The notes beneath the pieces were generated by a model. That model worked only from the letters and a program-made list of their open reading frames with translations. It ran no database searches and was not told the DNA's origin. A DNA stretch of 64,000 bases from Tetracentron sinense (lineage: Eukaryota > Streptophyta > Magnoliopsida > Trochodendrales > Trochodendraceae): NCBI GenBank assembly GCA_015143295.1, contig CM026568.1:16622607-16686606 (forward strand), given 5' to 3'. A program made the translations under genes and the position numbers. Positions 14,201 to 62,893 of this stretch are shown here, in pieces (within the stretch, counting starts at the first letter, position 1; the number at the start of each line of letters is the position of its first letter).

Positions 14201-17200
14201 CTTTGTGTTCGTTCTTTGTCTTGTTATTATTAGCATCCGTTATTCTTAGTTTACATCTTTGTAAATTGTTTCCTTTTATTTATAATATCTAATTTACCGA
14301 TCAAAAAAAATAAAGCTCTAGGGAGCGTAAAAACCCATCAAACATGTAGGCAACACTCTTTAATCTCCGTCTCCAAGCCTTTTTGCAATTCTCTCAAGCT
14401 GAGAAAGGTCACCTCTCCTTGTATTAGACCCAAACTAAGGAATTGAAAGTCCTGCCCTGACACAACATCCCATAATATAACCTCTAAATAGAACAAATGC
14501 GAGACTAAACTAGGTATAAAATCATAATAACTAAAGCTAAGAAGAAAATTGTAGTTTCCTCATAATTGTAGCATAAATTGCAGCAGGCAAAGTCCACTAC
14601 TTCCATCTCATAGATTAATAGAACTTTCTAGGCATAATGAATCCTATAAATGACAAGAAAAGTGACTTTGGGATGGAAGATAGGTGGGTGTCCAAGGCCC
14701 ATTGAGATGAGATTGCAATGACCACCACATTAAACACATCTTCAAACAGATTGACCTCTACTGGATGCAATGGAGATGTGCATTCCTTCTATGGTAGGAC
14801 AGGATTTAAGGGCTTTAAGCATCTCAAACCAAGGATTAATATATAAGTTTTGGGGATACGAAACAGTTAAAACCAAAACCGTTACATGTCGCCGATAACG
14901 ATACGTATCGGACAATATTTATAAATCAGTGTTTTTTTTTGGGTGACACCGGTACATATATATCGGATGATATTTTTTTTCCTTTTTTTTGAAGAGAGGC
15001 ATTGAACAAGTCCTACAAAACGAGTCCCCTACTGATACGTATCGATTTCGGACGAGTTGCATTAAACCTTATTTTCAATGTCTCCGTCTTAAATATTAAT
15101 TTCATACAGGTAACTGTCAAAATCGATACGTATCTATCGAAATCGATTCAGCGATTTTTATTTCCATGTCTCAAACAATTCACAATTATGAGGATATAAT
15201 CAGATGCATTACGTACAATGATACTTCGGAAATTTTATATCGCAATAAGGACTCGGTAATCAATAATGATGTGCTTAATCTTCTTTGGGAAATTTACTGG
15301 ATAACTACTATTAGTAAGAGGAATAACAGTGCACCGTCCGTCATCGGTCAAAATGTGAAAAGACAGTGCTAGAACGATATCCGGTACAAGTACCCTACAG
15401 AATTCCCCTTTCTTTTAAATGCCTTCTGAAATAGAAAATGATCGAGGGCATCCTTTGTTTTCTTGTTTCAGAATGACCCAAAAGGTGGAGATACTTTGGC
15501 AAAAGATCATCCTTCAGTGTCTGTGCTTCTTGCCATGTTATTAGTATCACCATCTGTAACGTCATGCTACATGAAATTGAGATATATCTTTTAGCAGATG
15601 ATGAATTAATCATCACGTTTTATACCTACCAAATTGTAATAATTTATAGAAGAAAGAGATGGATGTTCATGCATTGGAAAAAGGTGGAAGAAACTTACAC
15701 TGTTCAAAATACTAATTATTAACAAAAATGTAGCATGCGATTAATAAACAGAATAAGATAGAAAGAAAAAGTTTTGTAAGCCTAATACATTTCCTTATGA
15801 TGGTAAATAGATTTGTACTAAAGAAATCTGTGCGAAATTACATATAAATCATACCATACATCACTTTATCCAATTGATTAATTTATTTCCAATGTATTTC
15901 CTGTTTTTCCTATTTTCAGTTTCTCAGTAATGCTCCATATTTTTCTTGGTCCTTTTGATCTTTTATTAGAATCCTATTATGGTAAGAATGCCAACCATGA
16001 AGCAGAATATATTGGGAAAAGACTTCCCCACATCAATTGTTTCATCTCATCACTTTTTTCTCTGTATCTTATCGCATTTTGTGCACTATTAAGTCATGGC
16101 ATCTCGAAATATCAATCCTATTTCCAAATATTACTTGTCAGCTCAATAGCCCATAAATGATCTAATAAATAGAGAGCTTGCATCTTAAAATAAAAATAAG
16201 TCCGAAAATCTTTTAACATGCAGAGTAACTCATCCTGTACCTTTTGATTAGATGGTGAAGGTAATGGTAATATTGGTGCCTGAGCTTCCGTTGGAGCTTG
16301 CGGTGGTGGTACTGATGATGATGCAACCACCTTTACATCTTTATGAACCGTTTGTGAAGGCTGAGATGAAGAAGAAAGTGTAGTCGCTCCAGGTCGCAAC
16401 AGCTGACCTGGGGTAACCAAAGAAGGGGTTGATGTTTCAGTGTGACTTGAACTGGATGCCCCCACAGTGGAGGACACAGATTGAGACATAGTTTGATACG
16501 GAAAGCTTGGGGTAAGAACTGTCTTAGGCTTGTTAGATATTGGTGGTACAATGGCATTTGTAGCCGGACTGGTTGTAGTCAAAGGAGACACCAATGGCAA
16601 ACTACCACTCAGCGTTGCTGTTGGAAGAACAGGGGTAGGAGCCTTCTTTGGCATCAGACTTGGTGATATTTCAGAAGCTTGTGCAGAAGACTGGACAGGA
16701 GGCAGAGTTGTCGGCAAAGTTGATGGTGGGAGAGTAGTGGAGGTTAAATTCAGGGAACCGGTACTAACAGGTTGCAGCAAAGGAGGAGGGAATTCCGGCA
16801 AGTTTAGCGAATTTGCAGCTCCAGTCGGTAAAGATGCATTCATGCCAGGATATTGCATTGGAAGCTGCATGGAAGGAAGCATTGACAAGCCAGGTGGCGG
16901 TCGAAGCAACGATTGCTGTTGCACATGAGAAAGCCCACTCGAGGGCCCATAGAATCCCTGCCAATACATTGGCATACCATTTGCACTTGGAGGAGGAGGT
17001 GAAGACCCCCACGATCCTAAACTTCCTCCAGGTTGATATAATGGCAGACCACCTTGGAATGTTGATCTGGGGAGCCCCAACTGTGCTGTATGGGAACTAA
17101 GATCTGTTACAGAACCAACAACAGCAGAAGGCAAACTTGTAGATGCAGATGCTGTGGGAGGATAGTGAGACTGCATAATGAATTACAACAAATAATAATC

Positions 17201-20200
17201 AAATTGACATTACATGGGTAAGAACGACATTTTTTTAATGTGGTAAGAATGCCTTCATTTTATTTACCTGTATAATAGCAGGATCATTATGAATTGGTGG
17301 TGTAGCCTGAACAGGCGGAGAGGATTTAACCTGTAAATCCTGCAACCAGATGCACAAAAGAAATGTTTTGGGGTCTATCTAATTAGCTTAATAAACTAAA
17401 ACAAAATGAACTCCTACCAACAACCAAGTCATAGATGTTTTCGCATATAACAGTTCATTGCATTTCATCTGACATGCCTTTCTTAAATTGGGAAAGAAAA
17501 AGGGAACAAAGGAAATAACTAATTAAAGAACCAACAAAATAAAGCAGCAATCAGAACCAGCAAATATATATTTTCAAAAAAAAAAACAATCTTGGCAGAT
17601 TCTAATACTAATTCCGCCGTGGGGAGACCAGATTGGGATAATTTGATTGGTACAGGTAAACTGCTGATGTAGGCAGGGGTTAATACCCTCATAAGCAACT
17701 TGTAGCGATGAACTACACTGCTTCAAGTAAAGTGCAAAGAACAAGAATCCATCTTGTCTTCCACCACATAACAGCAATGTTGATCTACATAGTTGCTAGT
17801 TCCATGTAAAGATGAAAAACACAAACAGAAACAACAAATGCCCTTGGCTCTAGAACACATGAGCTAGCACGGAAGTTTTGGGGGAAACCACCTTTTTACT
17901 CCTCATGTGGCATGTAGGGCCCATTTGGCATCACTCTCAAGGAACAATTCTTTATTCCTTGGGAATAGAAATTCTTGCATTTCTATTCCCAGGAAATAGA
18001 GAATTGTTCCATGGGAGTGATGCCAAACGGGCCCTAGTGTGCCTTATTTTCAAAATAACAAGAACTACCTGCACAAGAGTATCTAGTGGATGCTCTACAA
18101 CCTACAGTCATCTTTTCTGTTCTTTTTCTTTCTTTTTTTTTTTGGTAACGGAGGGTGTCCCAAAGCCTTTGAGCCAAGGACTAGTCTCTTGGGGTATCCG
18201 CACCGACCCACTCAAAAGACAGTCATCTTTTCTACTCATGATGCAACACAATCTCCTAGATGGTAGATATAGTTGGTCAGAACATTCAAGGGTGTTTAAA
18301 AATTCTATAGATAATTTAAAGGTTCACGGGGGAGAAAAACAAAAACCGGCTTGTAAGGGGAAAAGCATACTGATCTGTGACGCTGGAAATTAAACCATGC
18401 TAATAAGTAATACCTGAAGTGAACGCAGAAAAAAATGAATTGGCAAATTTCTTACATGGAAGACAAGAAATAACCTCAAACATGAATCATACAGAGTGCA
18501 CAATGGTCTGTGATCAAAGCAAGTGTCCAATAGTTCACAGGTGACAAATTGCAAAATAATACCACAATCAAGCTATAATTACGTACAACCTCAAGCAATA
18601 TGTAATTATGTATATATATATAGAGAGAGAGAGAGAAGAGGTGACTAGTCAGCCTAGCTGATTATATGTTATAGTCAACTCACCTCCTCTATACCGTTGG
18701 ATCTCAAGCAAGGGCTAAGATTAAAAGAGACTTTTTTATTATCATTTTCTTATTACCAAAACTACCCTTTTTTTTTTAAGTGTAAGCAAGTTCAAAAACC
18801 GGGGACTCTTCCTCTTCTTCTCCAACATGAGGCCCTGGTTTCCTTGAGGCCCTGTAAGAGAAACTGTAGTATTTCCTCTTCTTTAGAGATCTACTCTCTT
18901 ATCTTTTCTATTTTGATTTTTTTGAAGAAAAAGAGAAGGGGACAACTCAGAATGTAATTATCTCAGATCTGAACTATAACATTAAACAAAATCCACAGGT
19001 AAATTCTAATCATGGGTTCATAAACTGTTCTATTCCTGGATTTTATTGAATTCCCCCTGGTTGCTAACTCCTACTTAAAATGTTAAATCCACATTTCTTT
19101 TGCTATCTTTGTTTGATCTGAAATCACCATGAGATATTTCTGAAATCATCATTGGACGAGATACTTGATTTCCAATCACACCCAGACCATCTCATACGAA
19201 GACTACTGGGATTACGGTCCCAGCCATTGCAAATGTGAGCTTTGCCTGTAAGAAATACAAGAGGAATTGACAAAGAGAAGAAGGTTGAGGATGGTGGTGG
19301 TGGCGACCATAGGTCATTCTGGGGGTAATCAAATGGTTTTCGGCAACTAACTCCACCGTCATGAGTTAAACTGTAGTAAACAATATAGAGATGTAGCCAT
19401 GATTTTGGGTTTGATGAGCCCTAGTTTTGGTAATAAGAAAATGATAATAAAAAAGTCTCTTTTAATCTTAGCCCGTGCTTGAGATCCAATGGTATAGAGG
19501 AGGTGAGCTAATTATAAGATATAATCAGCTAGGCTGACTAGTCACCTCCTCTATATATATATATATATATATATATATTTTAAACGACCCAAGTAGTTGA
19601 TTAACTTCGACCAACTTGGAAAGTGGATTGGGTATTTCGTTTAAATGTTTTTTTTTAATCGGTAAGAAGTATGCAAGGTGTTAAAATTCGACTCAATTCG
19701 GTAAACTTCTACCAAATTGAGTCGACTTCGGTGGTGACCGAAGCAAAATCAACAAGTAAATTAATTCTGAAATTCGTGATGCACTTCAGTTAACTTCGGT
19801 GGACTTCGATCGAAACGGAAAATTTTAGTAAGAAAAAATTGAACTTCGGTGGAAGTCACCGAAGTCCACAGAAGCTTAATCAAAAAAATTTGTGATTCCC
19901 AAGGACTGAATTCAATCCCTACTAACCAAAAAAAATCAATCAATTTAGATTAATATCTGATTGAGAGGAAAATAAGAAATCAATTCACTTTTCCTTAAAA
20001 ATCAAGAATCCCAATGGGGCGGAAATCATCCTCCATGACAATCAATCTCTAATAGAGAAGAAAAAAAAAGAATTTTGAGAGAAAGGAGTAGGGTACATAC
20101 CTGTGACCACCCTTGCTGTTGCCGATCGCAGAAACCCTAGAAGAGTGGGTCTGTTGGTCCAACGAAAAATAGGGTGGAAGTCCAACGAAGTCCCCTTTTC

Positions 20201-23200
20201 TCTCGTCGAGCTCTGGAGATTGGTCTCTCGTAGTCGTCGAGCACTGGAGCTTGGAGTTTGGTCTCGTGAAATGAGAGTGAAATGAGGGAAGAAACCCTTT
20301 TTAACAAAGTTAACAAAGTTAAACGAGTAATGCTAAAGTCAATCACTCTTAAACTCACTTTCTACGAAATAAAGGCATGTGAGTCTTAAAAGAGAGTGTT
20401 CCTAGCATTATAAATCATAATTTTATGAATTCAATATTAAAATGACTATTATGACCTTAGGATATTTCGTAACCTCACAAGGCCCCTTTAATTGGCCTTA
20501 AACTATGGTTAACAAGTTTTAACTCCTATGGTTAACTTTTTTTTAATTTTTTTAAAATTAAGGTTAGATGCTTTAACCCTAAGGGTTAGTGAATCTTAAC
20601 CACAGTTAAAAGAGATGCCCTTAAGATATTTCATGACCTCCAAAAGCCCCTTTAACTGCCCTAGAATTATGGTTAGCAAGTTTTAACCTTTATGGTCAAC
20701 TTTTTTTTAATTTTTTTCCTAAAAATTAAGGTTAGATGCTTTAACCCTAAAGGTTAATGAATCTTAACCATAGTTAAAGGATGCCCTTAAGATATTTCAT
20801 AACCTCACAAAGCACCTTTAATTGCCCTTCAACTATGGTTAACAAGTTTTAACCCATGTGGTTAATTCTTTTTAAATTTTTTTCCTAAAAACCAAGGTTA
20901 AATTCTTTAACCCTAAGGGTTAGTGAATCTTAACCACCTGTTAAAGAAAATTAACAATATAGAGAAATATCAAGAAAATTCCTAAACTTCTTTAATTTTT
21001 ACATAACATCCTTCAACTTCCTTAAACTTCCACGAATTGAGTCAACTCTCTTAGCGACCGAAGTTTATACCAAATCCGAAGTTTAATACCTTAGAAGTAT
21101 GAATATATTAAGAAAAACGAGGATTACAGCAGTTTACAAAGATGTAAACTAAGAAAAAACACAAAGCATAAAGAACAACAAGAATCGACTAAACCTGGTC
21201 CTGGCCCCAGCCACTAATAGAGGCGGGCACATCATAATAGGAGCATATCCCTTACTTTCGGACCCCACGGATTGATGGAACTCCAATCCACAATCTGGTG
21301 AAGAACACGCCCTAAAATCTGGGAGGAAGTAGAGGGAGAATCATCGAAAACATGATTATTCCTCTCTCTCCATAAAGACCATGAGATAACACCAAACAAA
21401 ATAGTCCAAATTTCTTCTGTGGCCCCCATCAAATGTGCCAATTGTCAACCCAATAAGAAGCTCAAAAAGGAGGATGGGAAGACCCGCTCCACTCCTAATC
21501 GAGAGAGGAACGAAACCCATAGCCCACATGCAACCGGCAGTGCAAGAGCAGGTGGTTCACAGACTCTTCCTCATTTAAGCACATGTAGCATCGCTTTTCC
21601 ATGCTCCACCCTCTATTCTTAAGATGATCTGAAGTGAAAACTTTATTACGAGCAGTGGACCAAAGGAAAAAGGATACCTTTGTGGGAACTTAGTTAGCCT
21701 AAACAGTCTAATAAGGAAATGGGTACCTTGGAGGAGGGGTAAAAGGTTGTAATAATGATCTCAGTGAAAATCACCCGGAGTTGCCTCTAGACCAAATCCT
21801 AAAATCACGAATTTGGGGATGGGGTTGGGAGGAATACAGGCGACTCAGAAGGCCGAAGGCGTCGCATAACCTCAACCTCCCAATCATTTAGGTTTCTCTG
21901 AAACCTAGGACACCAAACTAACTCGCTACCCACCCTCTCAAAACACTCAGAAATTGATGCCACTTTGTTAAGGGTCACTAGGAATAGACTTCCAAAATCC
22001 TCCTTTACACTCAACTAACCACACCATACATCTGACCACAACTAAATATAGGACCCGTCACCTCGCTTGAACCTAAAGAATGAGATAAGTAAGGAGCAAC
22101 AGCCATAATTGATTTCCAAAGGCCTACACCGTGCGCCTTGCGCACCCGCTTTGGGAACTTGGAGGAGATTTTCTCATGTCTTGTTACGATCACTTTCCTC
22201 CACAAACTCTCTCGTTCTTCGCCAAACCTCCATACCCAATTTCCTAGGAGGGCTTTATTCATTGCAACCAGAGGGGCAATGTTAAGGTATCCATCTCGTA
22301 ACAATCTACAGATTTGGTTCCACTTCACTAGGTGATATTTCCTCTTACCCCTTCTCTCATTCTAAAGGAAGTTTTGTTGAATACGCTCTAGGGACAGGGC
22401 TATGGATTCTGGAATCGCTGAGGAGAAATAGTAGGTCGGGAGACTCCTCAAGGTGCATCTATCCAGATTCCTTTATTTGTTGACAGTAAAACTATATTAT
22501 TAAAAAATGAGGAAAGAGACAAAGGAATCCAACTTACAATGACAATTATCCACTAAAAAAGTGTCTATTTGAACTCCTTCCTTTGCTAAAGAATCTACCT
22601 TAGTCGATCGCACAAGAGAATATGATTAACAGTGAATAAACCAAACCCAGAAAAAATTTGATGACTTGGGATATTTTTGAAGGACCTTTATCCATTCCCG
22701 GAGCCCAATTGCTAGAATTTCCTTAAATTGTGATTTTCCCTATGTTGAGTCTCTTGCCTATCTTCAGGCTCTGAGCTTTGGACTTGTTAGAACCACAAAC
22801 TCCAATGAACTCCCAACAATAAGGATGGTTCTGCCTTCGCAATCCAAAAATAATCCTCTTGTGCCTGAAGGGCCTGGTTTTAACTTTTACCCAAATAATC
22901 CTCTTTCAAAAGATACAAATCTGCTTTGGCGACAAGAGAGGAGATGGAGGACCAAGCTACTGCTCTTCAATCTCCCAATTTTATACAATGAAAATTTTGG
23001 AGTCTGGACTAGGTGAACAAAAGCCAAACTCTCAACTAGATTGTGTTACCAAATCCATGAACTGACATAAGTCATCATTAATTTGAGTCTGTTTTCACCC
23101 CTCTATGATAAGCTAATATATATATGGAGCTTCTTCTTCTTTACTCTTTAGAAACCGAGGCATGCCAATCCAAAAATACCCCTTAAGCAAATGAGGCATG

Positions 23201-26200
23201 TATGTTGATCCCAAATAGAAGTTTACTGTTTCATGAGCAGTAAGGCCGAAGAAGACGTCAACCATCTCTTTCTCACTGTCAGATGACCAACTATATATAG
23301 AGCTTCTTCTTCTCTTTATTTGAGATACCTTGGGCCATCTCCAGGAGGCTAGAGATGTTCTAGTGAGTTTGGCCTAAGGGTCCATTCGGTCCTAGGGGTA
23401 AAGTTCTTTGGAGGATGTTACCCTTTGCAGTTTGCTAGGGCATTTAGAAAGAAAGGAATCGCAAGATCTTTGAGGACTCGGGATCCTCTTTGTTAAGTAC
23501 TTGCTCCTCTATTGGGCAGAGTGTCCAAAGTTAGGAGACTCTCCTTCAAGGTCATCACTTATCAGGCATGAGAAGCTCAAGTTTTGTGTATCGATTTCCA
23601 AAAAAACACTTGGGAGACTCTCCTCCAAGTTTATCAGACATTAGAAGCTCAAATTTTGTGTATCGATGAAGCAATATTCTGATTCTTAATGTGGTTCATT
23701 TTTTGGAAAGATTTTAGACCCCTTCATATATAGAGAAATAAAAATCTTGTCATCTATCAGAAACAAAAATAATATTTTCATCATTTTGCGAGGAATGTTG
23801 ACCATAGAAAAATTCCTTCAAATGTGTAATGTTTAACGGCGAGAGTTCAATGGCATCTTACAAATCAATGGTTGGCTGCAGAAAGTTCCCTAGGTTTGGG
23901 GAAGCACAGGTCGTTTGGTCAAGAAGCAGCCGAATAGTTTTCATCAAGGATCATGGAGTGGGGCAAAGGAAAGAATTTCTAAGATGCTGCTTGGTAGGCC
24001 AACTTCTAGAGCAGGAACCAGATCTAACCCTAATTTCTAAGCAAGTATACAAGGGCTGGCATACTTCGTATCCCGTGATCATTAAGAGGCTAGAGGAAGG
24101 TTATAACCATAGTTCAAAAACTCGAAAACTCGAATCGACTCGAAAGTTAGCCAAGTCGAGTAACTCGGAAAACTCGACTCGAAAGTGTATATATATATTA
24201 TCAAACATAGATAAAAATTTCTACTGCAAATTAATTTATACTTTATACAATTCAATTCTACTGCACACTTACAAATTAAAAGCAGTCATAAAGTAATCAT
24301 AATGCTAAAAGTCTCAATCATAATTTCAGAAATTATAATGCTATTGTTAATTTTAGAAATTAAAATCTTCATATTCTTCCTCTCGAATGAGACCTCGATA
24401 TGGGTAGAAAGAGATTTTTAAAAAAAGACCTCTATGTCCTCAAGTGACTCGGTTGAGTCTTTCGAGTCAAGTAACTCGGCCCGACTCGACCAAGTCACTC
24501 GAGTCACTCTGGTAAAAGGGAGCTATCGAGTTTTTTGAGCGAGTCGACCCGAAACCCAATCGAGTTGAGTTGAGTCAAGTCGAGTCGACTCGGTTAAGTT
24601 TCAAGTCGACTCGCCGAGTTTTTGAACACTGGTTATAACTATTGGTTTTGCCATCGTTTTATGGGAGGCGATAAGAATCCTTCATGAAGGGAGAATGATC
24701 TTCAACGAATTCTCATTGATGCTAGACGTACATTTGGCACCCTGTGGCTGGTCATATGCATAGTAACAAAATTCTCCGAATTTTTGAAAAATTCGCGAAT
24801 TATTCCCGAATTTTAGGTGTGCCGAATTATTCATAAATTTTAGGTTTGCCGAATTATTCTCTAAGTATTTGCGGATTTTGCAAATTATTCCTAAATTTCA
24901 CGAATTATTCTCAATTTATTCGCGTAATTTTGCAATAATTCATTTAGTTTGACAAAGTAAATTGCTTATTTTGTATATTATCAAATCAAATTGTTTGATA
25001 TCTTTTCATGATTATTATTTTATTCCCAAATTATTCCCCAATATTTCTAAGATTTTTCCGAATTTTTTCCAACTTGACCCTTGTCGAATTATTCCCGAAC
25101 CCCAACTTTGTCACTATGGTCATATGAGACGTCGAGATGTCTGGTGGGTCTGTGTTTACAGAGTCCACCTCCATATATGGTGTGAAAAAACATTCTCAGC
25201 AATCAAAGAGGGGTGAGGGCTTCATCAAGGCAATCCTAAGACAACTGCTTGAGACAAATTTGTGGTTGCTAGAATCCTTGTGAGGAATACTTACCACATA
25301 AAAATTCCTTCGGAGGTGTTATATATTTTTTTAAATCCTTCGGAGGTTGAAGTGGGCATCTGTGGTTGGAAGTCCTTTCTACGGATAGTAGCAGAGGGAA
25401 ATGAACTAGAAGTGAGCAGGAACTTTCCCAGCACATTCAGGGGAATGACTGGAGGGAGGAGGATAGGTGGAAGACGATGTAAGTTGGGAGGCCATGAGGA
25501 GTTGAAGGACCAGAGCTCTCATCTAAAACCTCTAACCCCATCTGTCTGGTGGTGTGAAAGAGAGGATGACTCTTCAGCTGCTAATGTGGAACCCAACCTT
25601 TTTGAGAGGGCTTCAAGACGGTTGGGAGGGATAACATATACGTAAGACATTTAGGTAGAAGGATAAAGGCTCTTTAGTAAAAAAGGGAGAGGGGAAATTT
25701 CCATTTAGGCCTTTTTAAGACTAAGACATTTAGGTAGAAGGATAAAGGCTCTTTAGTAAAAAAAGGGAGGGGAAATTTCCATTTAGGCCTTTTTAAGACT
25801 CACTAAAAGAAATGACATTTGCAAAATCAGTGATGGTGATCATAGAAGGAAGCAGACAGAGGTGGTGGGGCCTGACCTTTGACAAGAAAACTATGTACTG
25901 TCAATGGACAGGGCTCTGGCCGAGACAATGGCTGTCCAGGCCCAGCCCGGTCAAGAAGATATTAAGTCCTAGACCAGCCGGGCTCATGTTTGATATATTA
26001 TATAACATTTACACTTTTCTTATCAGTTTTAAACAAATTTATAAAGTAAAATTTACAGAGTTTTGAATAATAAAGTAGATTGAGTATTTGAAAAGAGTTG
26101 ACTTGGGGAGTTTCTTTGATCAATAGACAGGATAAACTTTGCATGTGATTATGGAATGCAGGGACCCAAATCACCCACCAGAGCTACAACTCGCCAATCG

Positions 26201-29200: not shown

Positions 29201-32200
29201 ATATATAATACCTTGATGTCACTTCCACGGAACAGTATGTACTCATAAACTTTGTCAATTGGCGGGACTTGTGGACCATCCTTTTTTCGTCCTTCTGTTC
29301 CAAATGATCTTACTGACAAGACAAAAGAGATGAATCAGAACCCACAATCAACATGGTGTTCATAGCTTTTTAACAGCATGTGAAGAAAAGATAAATATAT
29401 GAAGAAAACATTATGTAAGAAACGAGAATTTATTTCCTTTCAATAATAGCTATACATAGTAAACAACATAAGTCCAGAATTTTATTATCACATGGCACAG
29501 CTTTTCTAAGCTAACATGCTTAATTTCCTTTCAACATATTGGTTAAAGTTAAATTTCACAATTTGACAATACAATTAACACAGATTAGTCATAACAATTC
29601 CATTATAAAGTCCCGAAGCAACTTGTAATTACATTATGCACAAAAACAACAGTAATATATACTATATCGTTCAAGAAACTGCTAGAACAAACAACTTCCG
29701 TATTATACTACAAGATGTTTGGCCTGGATCAGCGTAGCCAAAATGTCGCATAGGCGCCTAGCTAGGACCCCTATCGCCTAATCATGATTAAGGCAGACAC
29801 TTGTTAAATTTCTATAATATAATAGAAAATAGTAAATTTTGGTTGCCTAGGCAATGCCTCGCCTAGGGAACCCCCTATCACCTAGGTGCTGCTGGATGCT
29901 TTGAACACAGTGGCCTGAGTAAATGAAAAAAAAACCATGAAATTTCAAACCAGAACTTTATCAATTACCAAAAGAAAATAAAAACTAAATCCCAACCTGA
30001 TATTACAACGCAAACGGCGACTGATTTTCAGGAAGGTACAGCTCAATATTTTTCAAGCCAGCTCATAGCATGCACGATATATATACAGTTTCTAACTCCT
30101 AAAGCACAACGCTTCTCAACCACACATATGTCTTGTCATGTGGGTCTGACCACAAAAAGATGGTGTTTGAACCTCATCCTCTCTATCATAACTTAGCATA
30201 TCCCTATCCAGAAAACTATGGTGTAACAAGGGTTACACCACCAATTTAGTTAGCTAATAGTGGAAAATTATTTTTCCTCTCAAGCTTCTCATTTTTTTTA
30301 GGCGAAAGAACATCTTAATTGGAATTTCTATTAAAATCCAGTCCGAATCTTTGATATTATATCCTTGTTTCCCCCACAAAATCAGCGAATAACACAGTAA
30401 AATGCTAGGCAAGACACTTAGTAGAGAACACAAATAAAAATGGCAGCGAATAGTTTTAAAATTAAATTTGTTTCATTTAAACTCATAAACAACTGGTTAG
30501 CTGGGCATGCAATACCACTTTCTTAATTCTAACTCAAGGTAAGCATACCAATGGCTCTTCTCAAATTAATGTCTAGTTCCTGAGTAGGAGAGAGTTGATT
30601 TTATGGAATATGGAGAACAATGCTTCGTCTTAATCAAGTTAAGAGTCAGAGGTCAGGTGCTTCCTTAGAGTAAACTTCATACAGATTACAGACGACAACC
30701 CAGAATCCCTTAATCCACATTATTTCAAAAATATTAGTCAACATTTGTATAGCTAAGACGCAAACATGTGTCAAAGACAAATACAAGGCATCATGCACAT
30801 TTAACTCAACAAAAATTAAACTCGGCACATCAATCTGTTTTTTTTATGTATCAGGAGATATACTTTTAGCATAATTCAGTTCATGTAGCTGTACAATATA
30901 GAAAGGAACAAGGAAGTGATTAGGTAAGCTGATATTCATGGAAATGATATATAAAATAAGTGGAAAACACAAACACATGAAGTTTGTCTAAGTTTCAGCA
31001 TGTATCTGGTACTTCTTTTCATGCTACTGCTAGGAATCTTCTTAAGAACCATGTGCATGGATATTTTGGGAAGGTTTTTCATGAAGTTTTTCTTAATAAC
31101 CAGTAAAGGGGGCGTCAAGATAAAGTTGCAAAACGGGATTGTATGTTAGTTAATGAAGTTAGGCAATCTCACTACTTTAAAGGGAAACATAATTTCAGCG
31201 GAGCAGCTCGCCAATTGTGGGTGTATAATAACCTTCTTAGATGATTCATGGCAGGTTGCAGAAAAGGCCATGATTATAGCTCAATGGAAGAAAGTAAGGA
31301 CACTTGTCTTCTAGTATTGATGTCTCCATTCCAGTTGCAAGAAAGAAAGAAAATAAATGAGTGATTCCATGATATTGCATCAGAGACTTGGGAACATGGA
31401 TGAGAAAGGGAAAAGCCATAGACTTAGAACTATGTGAGGACTACATCTACAGAAGCATAAAAAAAAATAAGTTTCATAAAGTAAAGAAAAATAAAGTTGA
31501 AAAGATTAGAACTTTTTTCACACGGATTTTTCTCCTTTTTACATATTAAATATATTAAAGAAGAAGCATAAATACATAAAGGTTCCTTGATAGGTTAACT
31601 AAAATAAAAATAACAAAGAAATGAAATGTAATAAATAAAGGAGCAACACTATCTATGTACAAAGAAGGAATAAGACCCCTAGCTCGTCGTAATTACTTCT
31701 GGCCGAACACCACGAGGATTACAACTTTGGATGACAAGAGGTGTTGTCAAACACCCTACTTTTCCTCTCCTCCCAAACATCTCAGCATATAGCTCTCTAC
31801 ACGTCATCTGCCTCTCTCACAACCCAACTGAAGATTAAGACATTAGAGTTTGAAGGAAAACCCACAAAACCCTTAAGCGGGATAAGAAATACACCTAAAT
31901 CCTACTAACCAGGGAACAATGGACAAAAAGGTGATCAACAAATCCCCAATCAACTATAAGCATAAAACATTTGTTAGCCTTTCTCCAACTCCCTACTCTT
32001 CAAGTTGTCCAATGTAAAAATTTTGTAGAGGAACATTCTCCATAAGAAGAATGTAATCTTGAATGGAGCACCAGATTCCACACTACTCTGTAAGGAAAAA
32101 GAAATCTAGCTCTAACATAAACATCCATAGTCAAATAAAATGATCTCACAGTTGACTAACTCTTGTTACCCTTGGACCAAATCCGCTTATGAATAAATAG

Positions 32201-35292: not shown

Positions 35293-35610
35293 CAGTGTTG
35301 TCAGAATCGGACCGGGCATCGAACCGGTGGAGTGGCCGATTCCCAGTTCCACCGGTTCGACCGTGTACTTATTGTAAGAAAAACCCTTTTTTTTTTTTCA
35401 TTTTTTACTATTTTTTCCCCGAGTCTGACCGGTTCCGGCCGGTTCCCAACCGATTCTACTACCGGTTTTGACCGATTCTACTACCGGTTTTGACCGATTC
35501 TAACCAGTTCTTAAAGAATAGTGGTTTTGAGGGTTTTGAGAACCAGCAAGGGGCCGGTTCCCGATTCCACCAGTTCCACCAGTCGGTCTAGTCCAGTTCT
35601 GACAACAGTG
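35293..35610. mobile_element. hAT-like MITE with ACCGGTT words (family e)
   Basis: Exact 8-bp duplication ATGGTATC at 35285-35292 and 35611-35618. Ends CAGTGTTGTCAGAA and, complemented, CACTGTTGTCAGAA (13 of 14). ACCGGTTC / GAACCGGT words in both orientations around a T-rich centre. A block GATTCTACTACCGGTTTTGACC is tandemly doubled near 35452-35500. Confidence 0.95.
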
Positions 35611-40852: not shown

Positions 40853-43800
40853 TCAGCTTGATCCATGGGTGGGCTTCATTCTTTTTGCTGATGGAGACAT
40901 GAAAAGCTTTCGAATTGAAGCAATGGGATCATCCACCTGTCCAAAAGTTGAAGTGCCAACTGAGAACCTACTTCAGATGATGATGCTAGATAGCGCAGGG
41001 AATCTACTAATAAATATCCATTGCACGGAATCTATTAAAATATATCCATCCACACAGAAGTAGTAAGTATGGTAATTATTTCAGATGACGGTTCTAGATT
41101 GTGTGGGGGATCTACTAAAAACATATCCATCCACACAATAGTAGACCAACATACCTCAAACATGGGCGAAGATGGAGAGTCTTCAAGTAAAGGATGACAA
41201 AACTCTTTCAAATTATGTAGAGCAGATAGTGTAAGTTGCCATCCAGGCGCTGCACTGCCTGTCGAAATAATCCAGGGGCAGAAATGCCTGTGCTGCCTGA
41301 TTGGATCTAACTCCATTGCTTGGTCCCGTTTTAGATCCTTTCCTGCAATAAAAAGGAAATAAGGCTGTCAACCTTTATCGATTAACAGGAAAAACTAATG
41401 TTTTCATTGGAATGGAAAAAATTAAGAAGCATTTGAACATAAGTAATTGCAAGCACCAGAAGATGTACATGGTAAAATGACGACCAAAAGCAAGGAGATT
41501 GCTTTCACATTTATCAGGTAGCAACCAAAATTCAACAAATAATCAGGAGGAATAGGTAGGTACAAATGCATGAAAAAAGAGAGAGAGAAGGTTTCATCTA
41601 ATAATGTGGGACATCAAGATTGTAAATATATGTGACTTATCATTGGTCACAACTCCAATTCCGATGTCGCTTCTTTGGAAGAACCCAATGTTTTAACTGC
41701 CTTGTTCTTCTGCTTCTTAGAAACAGCTTTGGGTGACACAAGCACCTCATAAAGAATGTTAATGTTAGTTGTGTTCTCTAGAATCTTGGTGAAAAACACA
41801 ATGACAAACATCTCAAAGCAACTTTTTTTTCAATGTAGGGGTAGTACCGTACTCACAATTCAGAAGCCAAGGATGAATTCTGCACCCAAGTGCAACAGCG
41901 TGTAACTGCTTATCTACTTTATGCAGTGCAAAATGGAAGGTTTTGGCTTCCCTTGGGATTATTGACCGAATGCCTCGACGAGCTCAATGTTCATCCCTAA
42001 GAGGTCCGAATCTAAGGTCCTACTAATTAAAGGTTTTCTCCACCAAAAATAGCAATCTCTTAATCCTTGAAGATCTCCCCCCACCCCCCAAGTCCAACTA
42101 TGTCATCCAGTCCATAGATGCTTGGAGAACTCCACATACACAAGCAAGCATATTCCTGTATGGGACCTCATCATGGAGGGGTCTTGCAGCTTCCTCCAAC
42201 CCGCTGAGCTTTGTGGATAACTTTGAACCTTTGGAACCATAAAAATCTCCAGGTTCACTTAGTTGCTCATCTTTTCATCTTAATCAATTAGATCGAACAA
42301 GCACTTAACTGCAAATGTCGGTCTTTATTCTGAGTTCCTTTTGGATGCACAGAAATTCCATGTAACAAATTCTTCCAAGATTGAATCTAGAAGCAGCATG
42401 TCCTCTTCCAAGACTGAATCTAGAAGCAGCATGTCCTCTTATCATTTTCTGAAGAGAAGAATGTTCTAGACTTGCACTTGTTGTACTAAAGATTCTCTTT
42501 GAGAAGGGCAAAAAGTGATTTGAATCAATAGCCACGAGTAAATTTTATTGTGTGATATTTGTACTACTTTCTCAACAACTCTTTCCCTGAGAAAAATATT
42601 TGAACCCCAGATCCATCTCCAACAGCTATTTCCTCGCAATGCAATGCAATCCAAGCTCCTATCTTCAGACCAGTAAGTTGAAAGAAAATTGCACCTCAAA
42701 TCTCCTGTTTCACTGTTTCTATAAATATGAAATGAGGAATGCAACCCCTACTCTCCATAAAAAAGTGTCACATGTTGCTTTTACCAGTTGCAAAAGCAAC
42801 CAAAAAATTCTTCTTTTATCGGTAAATTCAACAACTTATTCTCCTTTTTTTATAAAAAAAAATCTCACCTAGTCCCATAGGCCATAACCAGTTGCATAAG
42901 AAACTGGTAAAAGCAACTAACAAGTGTCATATTTTTACAGAGTACGGAAACTTTTTGAATTTGGAGAGTAGGGCCAGCATTCCTCATAGGAAGTACAATC
43001 CATTAAGTATGGGATAGTGATTTAGTGTACAAAAGAAAGGAAAATCATTCCAAAAATGTAAAAGCAAAATGTACATTTTAACAGGAAAGTGAGCCAGAAT
43101 CGACATCTTTTGTTGGACTTATCAAAACATCATAACTTTTTTGTCATTTCTCCATGAATTATAAACATTTGAATTTTTCTCCATAGGCCCTTAGCTATTT
43201 GAGTATTTTCATCATTTTCAATTTCCCTTTTTATCTATTAGATTTATGTAGCTTGTGGTGCCATGTTTCAAGCAATAAGAGAATGAAGTGCATCTCGCAT
43301 ACTCTTCAATCAGCAACCACGGTGCTTTTGGCAGGAAAAGAACAAAGGATAATTAGTGGCTCTTCAGGTAATCATTTCAAAACTAAATCGAGGATAGCTA
43401 GATTCATTGTCTTAAAATGGGAAATTTCTATGAGAATATTCATAATCATTCAATGAGTACTTGAAAGCTCCTGGTGAACTAGGCTGCCCTTCTTAATTGC
43501 AAACAAGAGTATTTGATGTTACGATCTTAACATTTTCTTTTGGTGAAATGTGTTACGTGACTAGAGTTAGGATTGGTTAGAGTTAGTGGTTGGTTAGAGT
43601 TAGGGGTTAATTAGAGGTAGTGGGTAGTTATGAGGATGAGTGTTCATGTAGTTTTGTAAAGGGGATCAGTGAATTGAAATCAAAAAGAGATTTATCTCAA
43701 GGAGGCTTGTTACCCTCGAAGTAACTCAAGGAGATCGGTTTCCCTCGAAGAAACTAGAGAGTACGTAGCAATTGGTATCAAGAGCCAGGTCGATCCATTC

Positions 43801-46800
43801 TCAAAACATGGACACTTATACTTGGAAGGAACTTCAAGAAGATTTGAGGGCTATTATTGATGATTTGAGGGGTATGAAAGAAAAAAATTCAGCCCTCAAA
43901 ATTGCATTTAAAACAATTTTTACACCTATAGAAGATGATATTAAAGATGCAGTCAAGAATGGTGTGAAAGATGGAGTTGAAGATGCAATAAAAGGAATCA
44001 AAGATAATGTGCAAGATAGAGTTGAAAATGCAGTAAAGGAGTTTCAAGTGTCCAGATCCAGCCACAACCATCAATCAGAAATCAAGACAACCCGGGGTGG
44101 GACGAGTTCATCCAAGGATGTTGTTTGAAGGTGAAAATTAAACTATGAGGAAGCCCAACAATGGCTGATTTTTACTCAAGAGATTTTTGTTTATGTAAAA
44201 AAAAAGGGGTCTAAATCTTGAGGACAAGATTTGTGTAAGGGGAAGGGTATGTTATGTGACTAGAGTTAGAGTTGGTTAGAGTTAGTGATCGGTTAGAGTT
44301 AGGATTGGTTAGAGTTAGTGGTTGGTTAGAGTTAGGGGTTAATTAGAGGTCATGGGTAGTTATGAGGATGAGGTAATCGGTAGTGATGAGGATGAGTCTT
44401 CCCTATTTAAACTTCATGTAGTTCTGTAAAGGGGATCAATGAATTGAAATCAAAAATATATTTATCTCAAGGAGGCTTGTTACCCTCAAAGTAACTCAAG
44501 GAGGTCGGTTTCCCTCAAAGAAACTAGAAAGTACGTAACATGTTCTGATATACAAAATCATGCTGCTCCACAAAACGGGCTGATTAAAAAAATATACAGG
44601 CATGAACCGTACATAAACAAAAGTGCATTTAGCAGAAACAATATTTGAAGATCTATCATGAACAGCAACAAATTTTGCACTGTTTCATCCCCTCTAAGAA
44701 ATTATGGCGATGAATCAACAAACAGAAAATTAAGAGAATTAAAGGTGAAGATCTATCATGAACAGCAACACATTTTGCACTGTTTCGTCCCCACTAAGAA
44801 ATTATGGCGATGAATCAACAAACAGAAAATTAAGAGAATTAATGTTATTTAGTTTAGAAGGAAAAAAAGAAAAGACCATATTGGATCATTCTAAGATCCG
44901 CCTAGCAAGAAGCAGAAACAGAGATTTTAGATTCTTCAACTACAGTTAATGGCGAAGTATGACATATAAAAAGGCAATATAAAATTTTGAGGGGTTGATG
45001 ACCAACAAAATTCCATATCTTACCATTGGCAACAAAAACCATTTCACTTCAATAAGCGTGGGAAAAAGCAACAAGAATGACAATAATTTGGCTTACCCGA
45101 CCCACGGACTGCAACAGCTTCACTATTAACAGAAGTCTGCACTCTGTCTTTCATCCCCTCAATTTTTTGGTTGTTTACACATGGGCCCAAGCAGTTTCGG
45201 AAATTTGAACCATTATCACCTTTTTGAGAGTCTATTATAAGGGCATTATCCGCAGGTGCATTATCTTGGAGACAGGATGTAACAAACGAAGATTCATGAC
45301 TGCTAGCCTGCACAATTACATTGTTGTGTATCACATCAGTTCCCCATAAACCTTCCTCCTGCTGAAGATGGCAAGTATCAGCTGCAACCATCATTAATGA
45401 GTTATTCTTGCTAATATCTTCATTCCTAATTATGTCATTAGCATCTGGAGTTGTCATTAGGGATTCCCTTGCTTGAGAACTAATATCAACCCCTGTTGCT
45501 GCATTGACTATCCCAGCATTTTCTGCATCCCCCGTCAAGGTGCCATTTTGACCTGGATCTTTTGACATAGTTTGCATGTTCTCCATGGGATTTTCTATCC
45601 ATGTGCCAATTGCATGCACAGATGGAAGCCCCTGCCCACTAGAATACCTTCCTTTTAAAGGTGCATCATCATTGCCAATTCTAGGTGTGTCCCCTATTTC
45701 AACGAAGTCCTGATTCAAACATGATGAAGGATCATCACTGCTAGAAACACAAAGTCCCTCAACATTTCTTTTGAACTTCGATGTTGCCATGTCGTCTGGC
45801 TGAACAATTTGTCCGATAAGAGCATCGCTATTGTGATCTTTTTCCTGCTGAAATGATTGCTTATTCTGTGAACCAAATTGAATATTTTCTGAGTTCACGC
45901 ATGACATGTTGTTAAACATACGATTTCTATTATCAGAATCAGATGAAAACCCAACCCTTAAATGCCGGCTGATAATGGGCAAAGAAACTGTTGCTCTGAA
46001 GTTCTGTTTTGTTGGTGGAGGACCCCCTGCAATTGTCAAATTTAAACTCAAAGGTGGCTCCTTAGATGATGTAGCTCCGTTGCAACCACTATCATCGATG
46101 CCTCCCCTACTATCAAGACGATTTTCCTTGCCTGAGTCAAGGACTCTTCGAGCCCCAGTGAGACAGCTAATAACATTTTCTTCACAATGAGCAGATTCAT
46201 TTTCACCATTGACTTCTGAAGATCCAACTAATCTGAACAATTCCAAAGGCCGAGGAACTGTAGAGAAAGCCCATAGTCCAACACTGGCTCCACAGAGCCT
46301 GCAGTCTAGAACAACAGAATCTGGGTCAGACTGGTGTTCACCAGAAGTTAAGGGGGCTGCATCCACCTCTATGGCCTCATCAGCACCAGACAGTGAGTAG
46401 ACAATGATACCAGGATTCGGTCCATTGGCAGTTCTCCGAGATGAATCTGAAAGATGAGCATCTTTGGCAGACTGAGTTAATTGGTCCTTGCAGTCAACCA
46501 TGTAAGGTAAAGAACGAAGTTCCCACCCACATAAACTTATGAGCTTTTGTGCCTGAAAATGTTTTTGCTCTCAGCTAATGTAATTAACAGAATATGCAAT
46601 TAGAGAACAAGCAAAAAAGAATATCACTGGTATGTAATTTTATTTTTTTTGAATCGGCAAAATATCACTGGTATAACTAAGACATATCACTGGTATGTCT
46701 TAGTCACATTATTAACTGAAACAAGAATCCAGAACTACTTAAATTAAGAAACAATTACAAGTGTTCATAAAAACATATGGCATGGAAAATTACCATCTTG

Positions 46801-49980: not shown

Positions 49981-51180
49981 TGATGCAGCAGATTTTGGTA
50001 TAATAAACCCGAGTTAGTTGGAAAATTCCATAAAGGTGAACAAGCACCAAATCTGAAATTTGAAAAGCAAGAACAAGGGAAGAGTGGAGAAAAATGCAGA
50101 AACTTACAACAACGAAATCCTACTTCTAGGCCAGACTTTTAGTCACTAGAAGATAAGAAGAAGAAATGATCTTCTATTACGAGAGGCAAAGCTTCCAATT
50201 ACAAAACTTCATCAAAACTTAGGAGGCTTTGGCTGACCAGCCCCTTCTCCTTTTACAATAGACTGGTAACAACTTACGTGACACATAAAACTCATACCAC
50301 ATAGAGGCTCTAGGAAGTTAATTAACTTCAGAATTCAACTAGTCGAAATACCAAGGATGGGTATTTTAAAAGGCATGTGAAGCTTACACCTCAAGGCTCG
50401 CCTCAAGGTGAGGCTCAAGGAAAACAACTTGAGGCTCGATGTTAAGGCTTAAATCTCATGAAGCTAACGCCTCAAACTGTGAGACTGGCTCACACCTCAT
50501 GCCTTGAGGCTCGCTTTATGTCTGAGACATGTGCCTCATACATTAAAAAAAAAATAGGATTTTAGCCACATATGACATAACTAAGACTTAAACATTAAAT
50601 TATAAGATATGCCTCCTAATTTCTTTTATCAATAAAAAAATATTAACTAATAACTCTTAATTTATTATGTCTAAACATTTTAAGGCTTTTTAAAACCTTG
50701 TTGAGTATATTTCACTATAATTTTTATAGTAGATATTAGAAAGATTTGGAGTCATTACCTAACATATGTAGTTGGCAACTACTTTGTAATTATTTGTTGG
50801 AATCCAAAATCAACCACAATATGAACAAAAAAGTTAGCTTTTATTGCCACTCTTAAATTTATTTATCTATGGCTGAATAATTTTATATGGTATTACTGTG
50901 CGTACACACAAACACATATATGTACTACCTTTATTTAACTTGTTTGAATCTTTTTGTAATATTCTTATATTTATTCATTTGTTAAAATGAGGTAGCATAA
51001 GGCTTTCTTGTGAGGCTTAAGCCTCACACATTTTTAGGTCCCAACGTCATTCCTTTGTGTTTTAAAACACTGCCAAGACTCCTTTAACTATATTATTTGA
51101 GTACCCTAGTTAGACATTGATTCCTTAATCCCTATTAATTACTTGACAGACCAACTTAACCATAAAATTGAATTATTCTT
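49981..51180 (-). mobile_element. Dispersed TGATGCAG family, copy 1, split by a hAT-like element
   Basis: Begins with TGATGCAGCAGATTTTGGT, then continues as the complement of the body seen in the other copies (GGTGCTTGTTCACCTT, TGGCTGACCAGCC). It breaks at 50358 and resumes at 51073 (CCAAGACTCCTTTAACTATA) after the insert. The far end is truncated near 51180. Confidence 0.6.
50359..51072. mobile_element. hAT-like MITE with GCCTCAAGG words (family f)
   Basis: Flanks CCAAGGAT (50351-50358) and CCAAGACT (51073-51080) match at 6 of 8. Ends GGGTATTTTAAAA and, complemented, CAGTGTTTTAAAA. GAGGCTCAAGG / CCTTGAGGC words at the left and GTGAGGCTTAAGCCTCAC at the right flank an AT-rich core. Inserted into a TGATGCAG-family copy. 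Confidence 0.7.
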
Positions 51181-54474: not shown

Positions 54475-54539
54475 TTAGCAAATCTAGTTTTTTTTTTTTT
54501 TTGTTAAGTGCGGGATTTTGGGGTTTTTAACCCTAGGAC

Positions 54540-54547
54540 TATAAATA
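54540..54547 (+). promoter_or_regulatory. Solo-LTR TATA box
   Basis: TATAAATA in the context GGACTATAAATAGACC, followed by a leader-like stretch with repeated AAACCCTAGG-type sequence. Confidence 0.5.
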
Positions 54548-56950: not shown

Positions 56951-57511
56951 CTAGCTTTGATGAATATCCAGATGATGGGGGTATAAACGTATAATCATGG
57001 TACAGAGGTCGGTTCTTGAGTTATCTTGTATATTTGCAACAAAACAATAAATGAATCTCTTGAAGATGAAAATGAAGTACTTGATTTGATAAAAGGATCA
57101 AACGGAATTCAATTTGACTGCTTGTCAGGTCACCCTGTAGAGTTCAAAAATAAAAATGAAGACGAAAAGACATATCAATTTCTTTGTCAACTTATAATAA
57201 TCCATATTTATGGAATTTTTAAATGCTTTCTTCAAAGATCATACCTAGGGTGTTTGTTGCACTTCAAAACAACTACTCTAAGATTAGAAGACGTCCAAAA
57301 AAATCAAGCCAAGGAAATCATGTAGAGGAAGCTTCATGGCTCGTCATTGGACACATCCAATGAGGCAATGATGTGATTGAAAATATCTTGCAAAGTAAAA
57401 TTTAAAAGCCTGAAGTAGGAGTATTGGGCAAACCTGAGGTCAAAAATCAAACGCAATTGAGGTCACCACAATAAACTTGAGGATCCCTTCAACGGTTCAG
57501 TTAGGGGAGAT

Positions 57512-57990
57512 TGATGCAGAAGATTTTGGTCTAATAAACCTGAGTTAGTAGAAAGAAGCTGAAAGTCTATAAGAATACATTTGTTTTATGGTTAAATAGA
57601 TCTGTTATGATTTAATAAGATTCATATCCAACTATGTACACTCAAATGGTTCAGTCTCTGGTAATTTGACTTGGTGAATCCTAAAACTAGTCAACTTCTC
57701 AGAGTTTTTATGTGATAAAAGTTTCATGTGCCAAATAACTTGTGCTCAATCTATTATTAGAGGAGAAAGGTCTGGTCACCTATGAATATTCTGAGTTATA
57801 CTGAAAATCTTGTAATAGAAGGCTTTGGTTCTAATAGAAGATCAATTCTTCTCTTGAACCTCTGGTAGCCAAAAGTATAGCAAGAAGTAGGATATTTTTT
57901 TTTATAACTTTCCACAATTCCTTTACATTTCTCTTTTAGTTCTCCCTTTGCAAATTTTAAATTTGGTGCTTGTTCACCTTGCTTTTGCAT
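57512..57990 (+). mobile_element. Dispersed TGATGCAG family, copy 4
   Basis: TGATGCAGAAGATTTTGG start, then the same blocks as copy 3 in + orientation, ending near TTCACCTTGCTTTTGCATTA. Opposite in orientation to copy 3, so the two are not LTRs of one element. Confidence 0.65.
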
Positions 57991-60064: not shown

Positions 60065-61698
60065 CTTTTTTTTTTATCGGTAATCAAAAGTATATATATT
60101 AACGAAAAGAGAGCTACAATAAATAAGGAGTTTGCAAGATCGTAAACTCAAAACAGGCGGAAACAAAAAACATGAAAGACCCCTTAATGGAAGACAAAGG
60201 GCTAACTAAGCAAGACGAATCAACCCAAAATGGCTCTCAAGTCCAACCCATCAAGCCAAATGGAAACCCAATCTAAGATCATAGACAGATTCGAGCGCAA
60301 ATGCGGGAGATTGAAGATGGAGAGTCCTCAAAGACTCTTGTTTCTCTCTTTACGTATCGACCGCGAAATGGCCCCCGGAAGAATCGACCAAATAGCCCGT
60401 TGTGCACTATTCACACTTACCAGAGACTAGTAGGATAAGAAGTTCTGAAAGGAAGAAGGGAATACATAATCAACTCCTATACAACAGAGGAAAAATCCTC
60501 ATATGACGCTAACAATAGAGCAAAGCAAAAGCAGATGATTCATCGTCTCTTCCGCTTGGAGGCACAAGAAACGAAGGTTGGCCATCCTCCACCTTCTATT
60601 CTTTAAGTGATCACAAGTAAGAATCTTATTCAAATATGCATTCCATAGGGAGAAAGATACCTTAAAAGGGGAGAGCTAGATTCCACACAAGTCTATGAGG
60701 AAAGGAAACGTGAGGTACGGGCCCAAGAGAGTGAAACAGTGATCTCGCTGAGAACCAACCATTGTGGCCTCACGAACAAATTCTACAATCTCTGACTTAA
60801 GGCCACATAGGAGATGACCCCAGCCGCAATAGAAGGCGACCCAAATCTTCAATTTCCTAATCGTTCAAATCTTGCCTCAACTTCGAACACCAAACCACCC
60901 CCTCATCCCCCAACTCAAAAAGATTCCCCACTAGAGCGTCCTTATCTACCCCTAAGAGAAAAATGTTGTCAAAATAATCCTTCAATTTTGCGGAACCACA
61001 CCAAACGTGTTTTCAAAACCGAACTTTTGAACCTCTACCCACCTTGAACCTAAAGTTGGACACGATTAAATGAGCAACAGGCATACCCATATTTGGCCAC
61101 TATGACGGATCTCCATAAACTCTCTCTCCTCCCCAAATTTCCAAAATTATTTACCTAATAGAACCTTATTCACTTGAACTAATGGATTCAAGTTTGGGTC
61201 CCCCTCCTCCCCCCACTTAGGACGACCAATACCCTCCCAAGCTACTAAATGGTACCTAAATTTATCTCCTTAACCATGCTAGAGAAACTCCTTCTTCATC
61301 TTCTCAAGAGCTGTAGCAACCGACCAAGGAATAGTGAGGGTTGACAAAAAGTATGTGGGGGGACTACAAAGGGTGCTTTTAATCAACGTTAATTTATCTC
61401 CTTTAATAGGAATGACGATTTTCATCCTAATAACTGATTGGCAAACCTCTCCAAAACTCACCCACGAGGGGCATTCCAAGGTATACAGATGGAAAGGAAC
61501 CCACTCTGCACCCTAAATAGGCTGCTAACAACTTTACTTCCAACACTTCTCCTACACTCACGATCTCCAACCTTGCCAAATTAACCCTCAACCTTGAAAC
61601 AACTTCAAAAACGTCAAAATAAACACCTAAGAGAGAGCAAAGTCTGACACGATGCTTCGCAAAATATGAGTGTAATCCGCAAATTAAAGATGAGAGAT

Positions 61699-62893
61699 CA
61701 TGGTTTTAAAAAACGCCGAAACCGTTACGTAACGCCCGTTACGTAACGGTTTCGGTGAACACCGTTACCCGTTACCGTTATGTTACACCCATAGTAACAA
61801 AGTTCTCGAATAATTCCCGAATTGTACCCGAACTATTCATTTTTTAAGGGGTGCCGTTTAAAAAGGCTTCTTTTTCCCGAACTAACGAATAATTCCCGAA
61901 CTGACGAATTATTCGCGAATAATTCCCGAACGAACGAATTATTCCGAACTTATGCCGAACTTATTCCGAATGAAGATTTCTCACAAATTATTCGTTCATG
62001 CTTATTCAGAATTCTAAAATAAAAATGAGGGTAAAATGAATTTTCTATTAGCAATAGAATTATTACTAATAACTCGAGACTTATTTCACACTGAGAAATC
62101 TTCATTTGATTGAAATCGCCAACTAATAGAAGAATGAGAAAACTCTATTCGAGTAAGCTATTTTAGGATTTTGATTACATTCGATTGAATTGAGAGAAAA
62201 AAGATAATTTTGCAAGCTGGTTAGTCGGTTGAATTTCCACTGAACTAAGAAAAAATAAAATTTGTGTTATTTATTCTGAGCTATTTCAATATTTTGCTAA
62301 ATAACTATGTTATGCCAAATAAATACACTCATATATTGTTTTTCTGATTTTATCTATTTAGATTATTTTTCTCGTTTTTATATATTTTTTAATTGCTTAT
62401 ATAATTTGATTTGCATATACAAACATGTAATCTAAATTATTCTTTTTTCTTAAATTACATAAAGCTTACTTAAGCCTTATGTAATTTTTTTCTTGAGTTT
62501 GCGAATTTACATAATGCTTGTTTTTTAGAAATTGGAATAAATGTTAACATAATAAGAGATGTCAATACATATAGATTGGTAGATGGATTAGTTGGCATCA
62601 CGTTCTTATTTTTTATAATTATTCATTTTTATTTTTTCGAACTTATCCCGAATTTGCCGATTTTTTCCCTTTTTTTTCGAACTTAACCCCTGCCGAATAA
62701 TTCCCGAATCCGAACTTTGTTACTATGGTTACACCTACATATTTTTTTTTAAAAAAATGTATTTATTGTGATTTTTTTGATTTTTTAAGCCAAAAAAAAA
62801 ACTCCGTAAAGGCCGAAACCGTTACGTAACGGCGTTACGTAACGGTTTCGGCCGTGTCCGTTACGGTGTCCGAAACCGTTTTTTTGAACCTTG
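61699..62893. mobile_element. hAT-like MITE with CCGTTACGTAACGG words (family d), itself interrupted
   Basis: Exact 8-bp duplication TGAGAGAT at 61691-61698 and 62894-62901. Ends CATGGTTTTAAAAAACG and, complemented, CAAGGTTCAAAAAAACG. GTTACGTAAC palindromes at both ends. Without the inner insert it is only about 249 bp. Confidence 0.92.
61790..62727. mobile_element. hAT-like MITE, family c, copy 2, nested inside family d
   Basis: Exact 8-bp duplication GTTACACC at 61782-61789 and 62728-62735. Ends CATAGTAACAAAGTTC and its complement are perfect over 16 bp. CCGAACTTATTC / CGAATTATTCCCGAA words near both ends. The AT-rich core is about 650 bp, longer than in copy 1 (24759-25118). Confidence 0.95.

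Follow-up and report, generated by a model that had tools for sequence, protein, structure and literature searches.

A single 64-kb stretch of DNA, here called the window as a whole, raises the question of whether a number of short elements, alike at their tips and different in the short words clustered behind them, are parallel families of non-autonomous hAT transposons, each carrying an address for its own transposase. Ten such elements are present (Table 1). The ends proposed for them in the initial annotation were recovered unchanged, and the 8-bp flanking duplications, seven exact and three (at 4424, 29730 and 50359) matching at 6/8 positions, are right to the base in all ten. They show no transposase coding, as no open frame of at least 150 aa lies inside any of them; one frame of this size, 23808-24296, enters the F2 element from outside. 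Terminal inverted repeats, judged by comparing the two ends in each of ten sets, are clear in F2-F8 and weak in F1 and F9. The elements at 24759 (F3) and 61790 (F3b) align in tips and words and not in their cores, and were therefore counted as one family, giving nine families in total. All ten elements are very likely non-autonomous hAT transposons, mostly MITEs, whose words would be family-specific transposase addresses.

Table 1. The ten elements of the window and the yield of genome searches with each family. Candidate totals come from a first look at the DNA of the assembly and are not confirmed copies; at most the best 40 were scored in each search.
Family	Position	Strand	Type and ends	8-bp duplication	Word	Genome candidates
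F9	4424..5069	+	hAT-type; TAGGGTGT...ACCTA	6/8	few CGGAT-type words	685; most listed matches fall in an unrelated middle repeat
F1	14830..15168	+	hAT MITE; CAAGG...CCATG	8/8, TCTCAAAC	CGATAC/GATACGTATC	44
F8	19674..21093	+	hAT-type, non-autonomous; CAAGG...CCTTA	8/8, GAAGTATG	ACTTCGG/ACCGAA	8708
F2	24108..24631	+	hAT MITE; CATAG...CACTG	8/8, GTTATAAC	CGAGTC/ACTCGA	2458
F3	24759..25118	+	hAT MITE; CATAG...CTATG	8/8, GTCATATG	GAATTATTC and CCCGAA	2794
F5	29730..29912	+	hAT MITE; CAGCG...CAGTG (consensus CAGTG...CACTG)	6/8	CGCCTAG	903
F6	35293..35610	+	hAT MITE; CAGTG...CAGTG	8/8, ATGGTATC	AACCGG	1366
F7	50359..51072	+	hAT MITE; 5' tip changed (family consensus CAGTGTTTTAAAAGGC)	6/8	GCCTC/GAGGC	2834
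F4	61699..62893	+	hAT MITE; CATGG...CCTTG	8/8, TGAGAGAT	CGTTAC/GTTACGTAAC	1606 (query: right arm)
F3b	61790..62727	+	second F3 copy type, nested inside the F4 element	8/8, GTTACACC		

Several other features lie within or beside these elements. The 4424-5069 element, probably an old copy, holds in its middle (approximately 4734-4874) a dispersed repeat unrelated to hAT ends, and few of the matches listed for it in the genome search reach the element ends, at 70-83%. Shortly after it comes a cytochrome P450 in two frames (5198-6819), between which the Pfam profile is split near position 268. A zf-RVT (reverse transcriptase zinc-binding) domain at 13639-14163 ends 667 bp before the F1 element; the third Pfam match, Transposase_28, is below the cut-off. 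The P450 and zf-RVT matches are compatible with a plant genome, the probable source of the window. Within F8, three tandem copies of a unit of about 160 bp occupy 20450-20936, and since this part gives extra overlapping matches at several listed genome places, the copy number of the unit may vary between places. A 157-bp inverted repeat (18608-18764 and 19422-19578), 91% complementary, with arms 657 bp apart and AT runs at its edges, is perhaps a long-TIR element; no flanking duplication is visible around it by eye. Imperfect direct repeats of the GGTTAGAGTTAG type form two blocks at 43562-44540, separated by about 715-770 bp. A search of the window against Rfam at gathering thresholds was negative.

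The assembly searched for further copies comprises 1,161,278,568 bases in 1479 contigs. Copies were read at 128 loci (8, 30, 30, 20, 9, 20 and 11 for F1 to F7 in order), picked among the best 40 scored places of each search, with preference for places matched at both ends in F4-F7; because the loci are best-scoring places, and those of F4-F7 were chosen with both ends, copy identities are biased upward. The F4 element, 249 bp long without its insert, shows a mean pairwise identity of 95.7% among 20 of its best-matching copies, and F8 has another genome place 93% identical over element positions 1-1419. Nine loci with a missing end or a length out of range (L002, L003, L005, L007, L020, L030, L037, L067 and L097) were left out before counting, and the 119 scored copies include three window copies (L001, L009 and L039). 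Two loci, L055 and L059, probably represent one duplicated locus, as their flanks are identical. The duplication is 8/8 in 56 of the 119 copies, 7/8 in 32, 6/8 in 12 and below 6/8 in 19, the F1 share of these figures, like the F1 consensus, resting on four scored copies. A match of at least 7/8 is found in 88 of 119 copies versus 6 of 2448 mismatched pairings of left and right flanks from different copies. The persistence of 8-bp duplications across copies, predicted in advance, is borne out for F1-F7, with at least 6/8 in 100 of 119.

The nested pair gives a direct view of an insertion site. F3b sits inside the F4 element at 61790, and all 20 other F4 copies read run through this site continuously and without an insert. 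The empty site reads GTTACACC in 16 of the 20 and differs by one base in the remaining four (L110, L115, L118 and L125), so the breakpoint is where it had been expected to be in 20 of 20 sister copies.

The eight CANNG families (F1-F8) have similar tips of the pattern CAnnGTnnnAAAA, in which positions 2, 5 and 11 never vary among the 16 ends; in F9 the tip is instead the Ac-like TAGGG. The mean majority-base fraction across the 16 ends is 0.72 at positions 1-14 versus 0.44 at positions 15-40, and this higher conservation of the first 14 positions indicates that the families share a tip and that each has a word of its own. For the analysis of words and ends, F1-F7 were represented by consensus elements and F8, F9 and F3b by single window copies, on which alone their words are judged; ends are the outer 150 bp on each side, or half of the element if it is shorter. 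The most frequent 6-mer of the ends, counted on either strand, occurs 6 to 17 times per set, a number reached in none of 200 dinucleotide shuffles in any of the ten sets and in 0 to 6 of 500 random pairs of stretches from the window. The signal is weaker at k = 8: the top count is attained in 2 of 200 shuffles for F1 and F9, and in 38 of 500 window pairs for F1 and F7. The initial annotation had proposed a comparison of word frequency in the terminal 150 bp with shuffled sequence; at k = 6 every one of the ten sets shows such an enrichment, and the F1-F7 consensus elements retain the word clusters. The listed positions of the words show no common spacing step by eye. A table of one chosen word per family against all ends is near-diagonal, with a few single off-diagonal counts; as its words were picked from the same ends, it describes rather than tests the difference between families, and in this descriptive sense the words do differ by family as claimed.

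With word clusters, duplications and the empty-site breakpoint all examined, none of the three observations named beforehand as speaking against the transposon reading (consensus elements lacking the clusters, copies lacking 8-bp duplications, empty sites with other breakpoints) was encountered. The same results bear on whether the ten sequences might be unrelated repeats that resemble transposons through chance or composition, as the three window duplications of only 6/8 might suggest. Copies with duplications of their own, word clusters beyond shuffles and an empty site were all found, and such an artefact has practically no probability.

Parts of the initial description of the elements require correction. 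The words had been called self-complementary, and inspection shows perfect palindromes in four of the seven named (GATACGTATC, CGAGTCGACTCG, GTTACGTAAC and ACCGGT) and not in the other three. In the ends, an excess of perfect 8-bp palindromes over shuffles at about the 5% level is limited to F2 (13 of 300 shuffles reach the count) and F5 (5 of 300); F8 stands at 21 of 300, and the other seven sets show no excess. Palindromes, mostly not above shuffles, were thus rejected as a defining property of the words, and "self-complementary" is an over-stated description. Nor do the words always occur in both orientations, as the F3 word GAATTATTC has the same orientation at 7 of 7 consensus places. The AT-rich core holds for nine of ten sets, with a GC fraction of 0.20-0.36 in the middle third, and fails for F6 (0.55); only in F2, F4, F5 and F7 is the core much more AT-rich than the outer thirds.

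Among hAT elements, Ac makes an 8-bp duplication and has the tip TAGGG, GTGGC is a Hermes word, and Tag1 has a tip resembling the one in F7. That transposases bind subterminal words is established for Ac, Tag1, Tol2, Herves and Hermes (PMC3260210, PMC3143072 and PMC10368747). The present families resemble Ac/Ds, for which PMC3260210 describes a short tip, a 6-bp word (AAACGG) that is clustered within the outer 200 bp and bound cooperatively by the Ac transposase, and non-autonomous elements in which the tip and part of the words are retained. The present elements differ in that an Ac-like TAGGG tip is found only in F9 and in the C7 and C11 transposase gene ends. AAACGG occurs 0 to 2 times per set of ends, F9 having two, with three or more taken as the mark of Ac/Ds proper. 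In Tag1 the subterminal words bound by the transposase are AAACCC and TGACCC (cited in PMC3143072); these occur 0 to 1 times per set of ends, which does not place any set in Tag1 proper. The same source gives CG/AATTCAT words for Herves and short repeats for Tol2 (PMC3143072), and PMC10368747 describes Hermes BED domains that bind subterminal repeats, one pair being a quasi-palindrome. Herves and Hermes resemble the present families in that each element has a word of its own (PMC3143072 and PMC10368747). The Herves words CGATTCAT and CAATTCAT have no occurrence in the ends analysed here, and GTGGC has 0 to 1. Since none of six known words (AAACGG, AAACCC, TGACCC, CGATTCAT, CAATTCAT and GTGGC) occurs more than twice in any set of ends, the elements are taken to be new hAT families, set apart from known elements by these counts of sequence words. 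BniHAT-1 and BniHAT-2, hAT MITEs of Brassica nigra, are likewise short, with 8-bp duplications and hundreds of copies; they differ in what is reported of them, as the accessible text of PMC7385995 contains neither the term "subterminal" nor a word-per-family comparison.

The transposases that might move these families were sought through 1709 genome candidates for PF05699 and 1783 for PF04937, the best 150 of each being scored, and flanks were read over about 1 kb behind 39 PF05699 domains and over 901 bases near two genes with DUF659, which we take to be a marker of hAT transposases. One DUF659 gene, on C13 and with a frame of 582 aa, has ...CACGCCTTAGCGTTTTAAAACATTG behind it, a sequence similar to ...CACGCCTTTGCGTTTTAAAACACTG, the end of the F7 consensus; the flank scores 51 against the F7 end, versus 32 for the next family end and at most 29 in 300 shuffles. 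With the last 230 bases of the C13 end as query, 1100 candidates were obtained, and eight of the best 40 listed lie 1.55-1.65 kb behind one of the 150 listed DUF659 domains on the same strand (C13, C21, C19, C4, C7, C23 and two on C2), in a comparison of positions made by eye between the best 40 of 1100 and the best 150 of 1783. Two of the eight paired domains, on C7 and one of those on C2, contain stop codons. Judged by sequence, the end behind this transposase gene is the same as that of F7, one end of the partner having been read.

A second partner is indicated for F9. An hAT gene on C11 (670-aa frame) has the end ...ATCCGATCCGTTGACAGCCCTA with CGGAT words, and about 106 bp of this 3' end can be aligned to the left end of the 4424 element with a score of 61, the next best among 39 flanks by 28 ends being 34 and the highest in 300 shuffles 32. 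The C11 word occurs only twice in the 4424 copy, and the C11 element is not among the best 40 of the 685 places found with the 4424 query. The same end probably stands behind a transposase gene for F9 as well, again with one end of the partner read. The initial proposal that element ends can be matched to transposase genes thus holds, at one end of the partner, for F7 and probably for the 4424 element, and no match was obtained for the other seven families: F1-F6 and F8 have no partner among the 39 PF05699 and two DUF659 flanks read, the genome lists for F2-F6 and F8 consisting of the best MITE-like copies only. Two places with F1 ends, picked out by eye within 4 kb of a listed DUF659 domain, were rejected as F1 partners, the domain lying outside the F1 end on C7 and no second F1 end being listed beyond the domain on C16. 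Matches of L143, L144, L148, L153, L155 and L166 to F4 or F3b (scores 29-34) are A/T-rich runs and were also set aside.

Other transposase genes carry words of their own. One hAT group, whose frames reach 718 aa and have an RTTKQ-type C-terminus, has AGGGCC words and the element end ...CCCTTTGACA(C/G)CCCTA. GCCCAA words are present in L167, the flank behind another hAT domain, where the element end is not fixed. A word-cluster test on 41 transposase 3' flanks flagged 15, namely 12 of the RTTKQ group together with L129, L167 and L170, and did not flag 26. The L170 cluster is due to a coding repeat; this second DUF659 gene, on C24, showed no element end within the 901 bases read there. The unflagged flanks include L169, the F7 partner, which holds the F7 end and whose commonest 6-mer is coding; L130, a close relative of the C11 gene by its C-terminus, whose sequence stops short of the element end; and L152, equally close by its C-terminus, which shows no cluster in its 1000 bases.

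These pairings bear on whether the words matter at all for mobility. One or a few promiscuous hAT transposases could move all families through the common tip, leaving the words as by-products of repeat growth. The likeness of tips across eight families is compatible with this, as is the observation that words lie close together in places, for example in F2 and F4; moreover, some Ds1 elements without AAACGG still move, according to PMC3260210. Yet the tip of F7 and its word are found jointly behind a single transposase lineage, the F9 end stands behind another, and further transposase genes have other words, while F3 and F3b retained tips and words and not cores. Such promiscuity is therefore considered unlikely. 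Under the preferred reading, that of family-specific addresses, each family would have retained the parts required by a cut-and-paste hAT transposase, namely a short tip with a word cluster behind it. The common tip would serve the shared cleavage chemistry, and the word would most likely be a putative docking site for the N-terminal (BED-type) DNA-binding domain of the family's transposase. Several hAT transposases would each have moved their own non-autonomous crowd in trans and in parallel. The initial suggestion that the words are sites for different hAT transposases is supported at the level of sequence.

The ends are also unusual in their CpG content. Observed/expected CpG is 0.79-2.76 in the ends of the ten sets versus 0.48 in the window outside the elements, where the median over 186 pieces of 300 bp is 0.45, the 95th percentile lies at 0.84 and the highest value is 1.63. 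All but one of 27 F2 copies and all but one of 10 F7 copies have a higher ratio in the ends than in the core, and CG is present in seven of the ten top words, with 3.4 expected from the same ends. The transposase gene ends give 2.11 for C11, 1.26 for C13 and 0.42 for C7. CpG-rich ends of this kind might instead make the words sites of host factors or chromatin signals, such as places of CG methylation, in no connection with a transposase. A host site should, however, be common to the families, yet their words differ, and the C7 gene end is poor in CpG; a host function is more improbable still than a promiscuous transposase.

If the words are transposase addresses, their CpG may nevertheless have a role. 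For Ac, full CpG methylation inhibits transposition, and the transposase selectively binds hemimethylated sites (Ros and Kunze, as reported in PMC3878927). By analogy with this report, a methylation gate is a reasonable candidate idea here: CG methylation of the words could control the docking or moving of the families, making them parallel methylation-switched addresses. This extension is held with considerable doubt. Several observations count against a general CpG rule: the top words of F7, F8 and F9 have no CG, the value of the C7 end is low, and F3 has a short core that equals its ends in CpG richness (2.98, with 5 CpG in 59 bases).

The term "code", used for these words in the initial annotation, is a fair description and not a new principle, because a subterminal word proper to each hAT transposase is already known for single elements. 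What is new is the number of parallel families and their CpG bias. Where binding words had been known for single hATs, nine families with different words occur here together with transposase genes of four kinds that have candidate words, so that comparing them could reveal which DNA-binding domain goes with which word and yield a recognition table for hAT transposases. From such a table it would follow which orphan MITEs can be mobilised by a given transposase, and the table would also test whether CpG in the words makes their mobility dependent on methylation.
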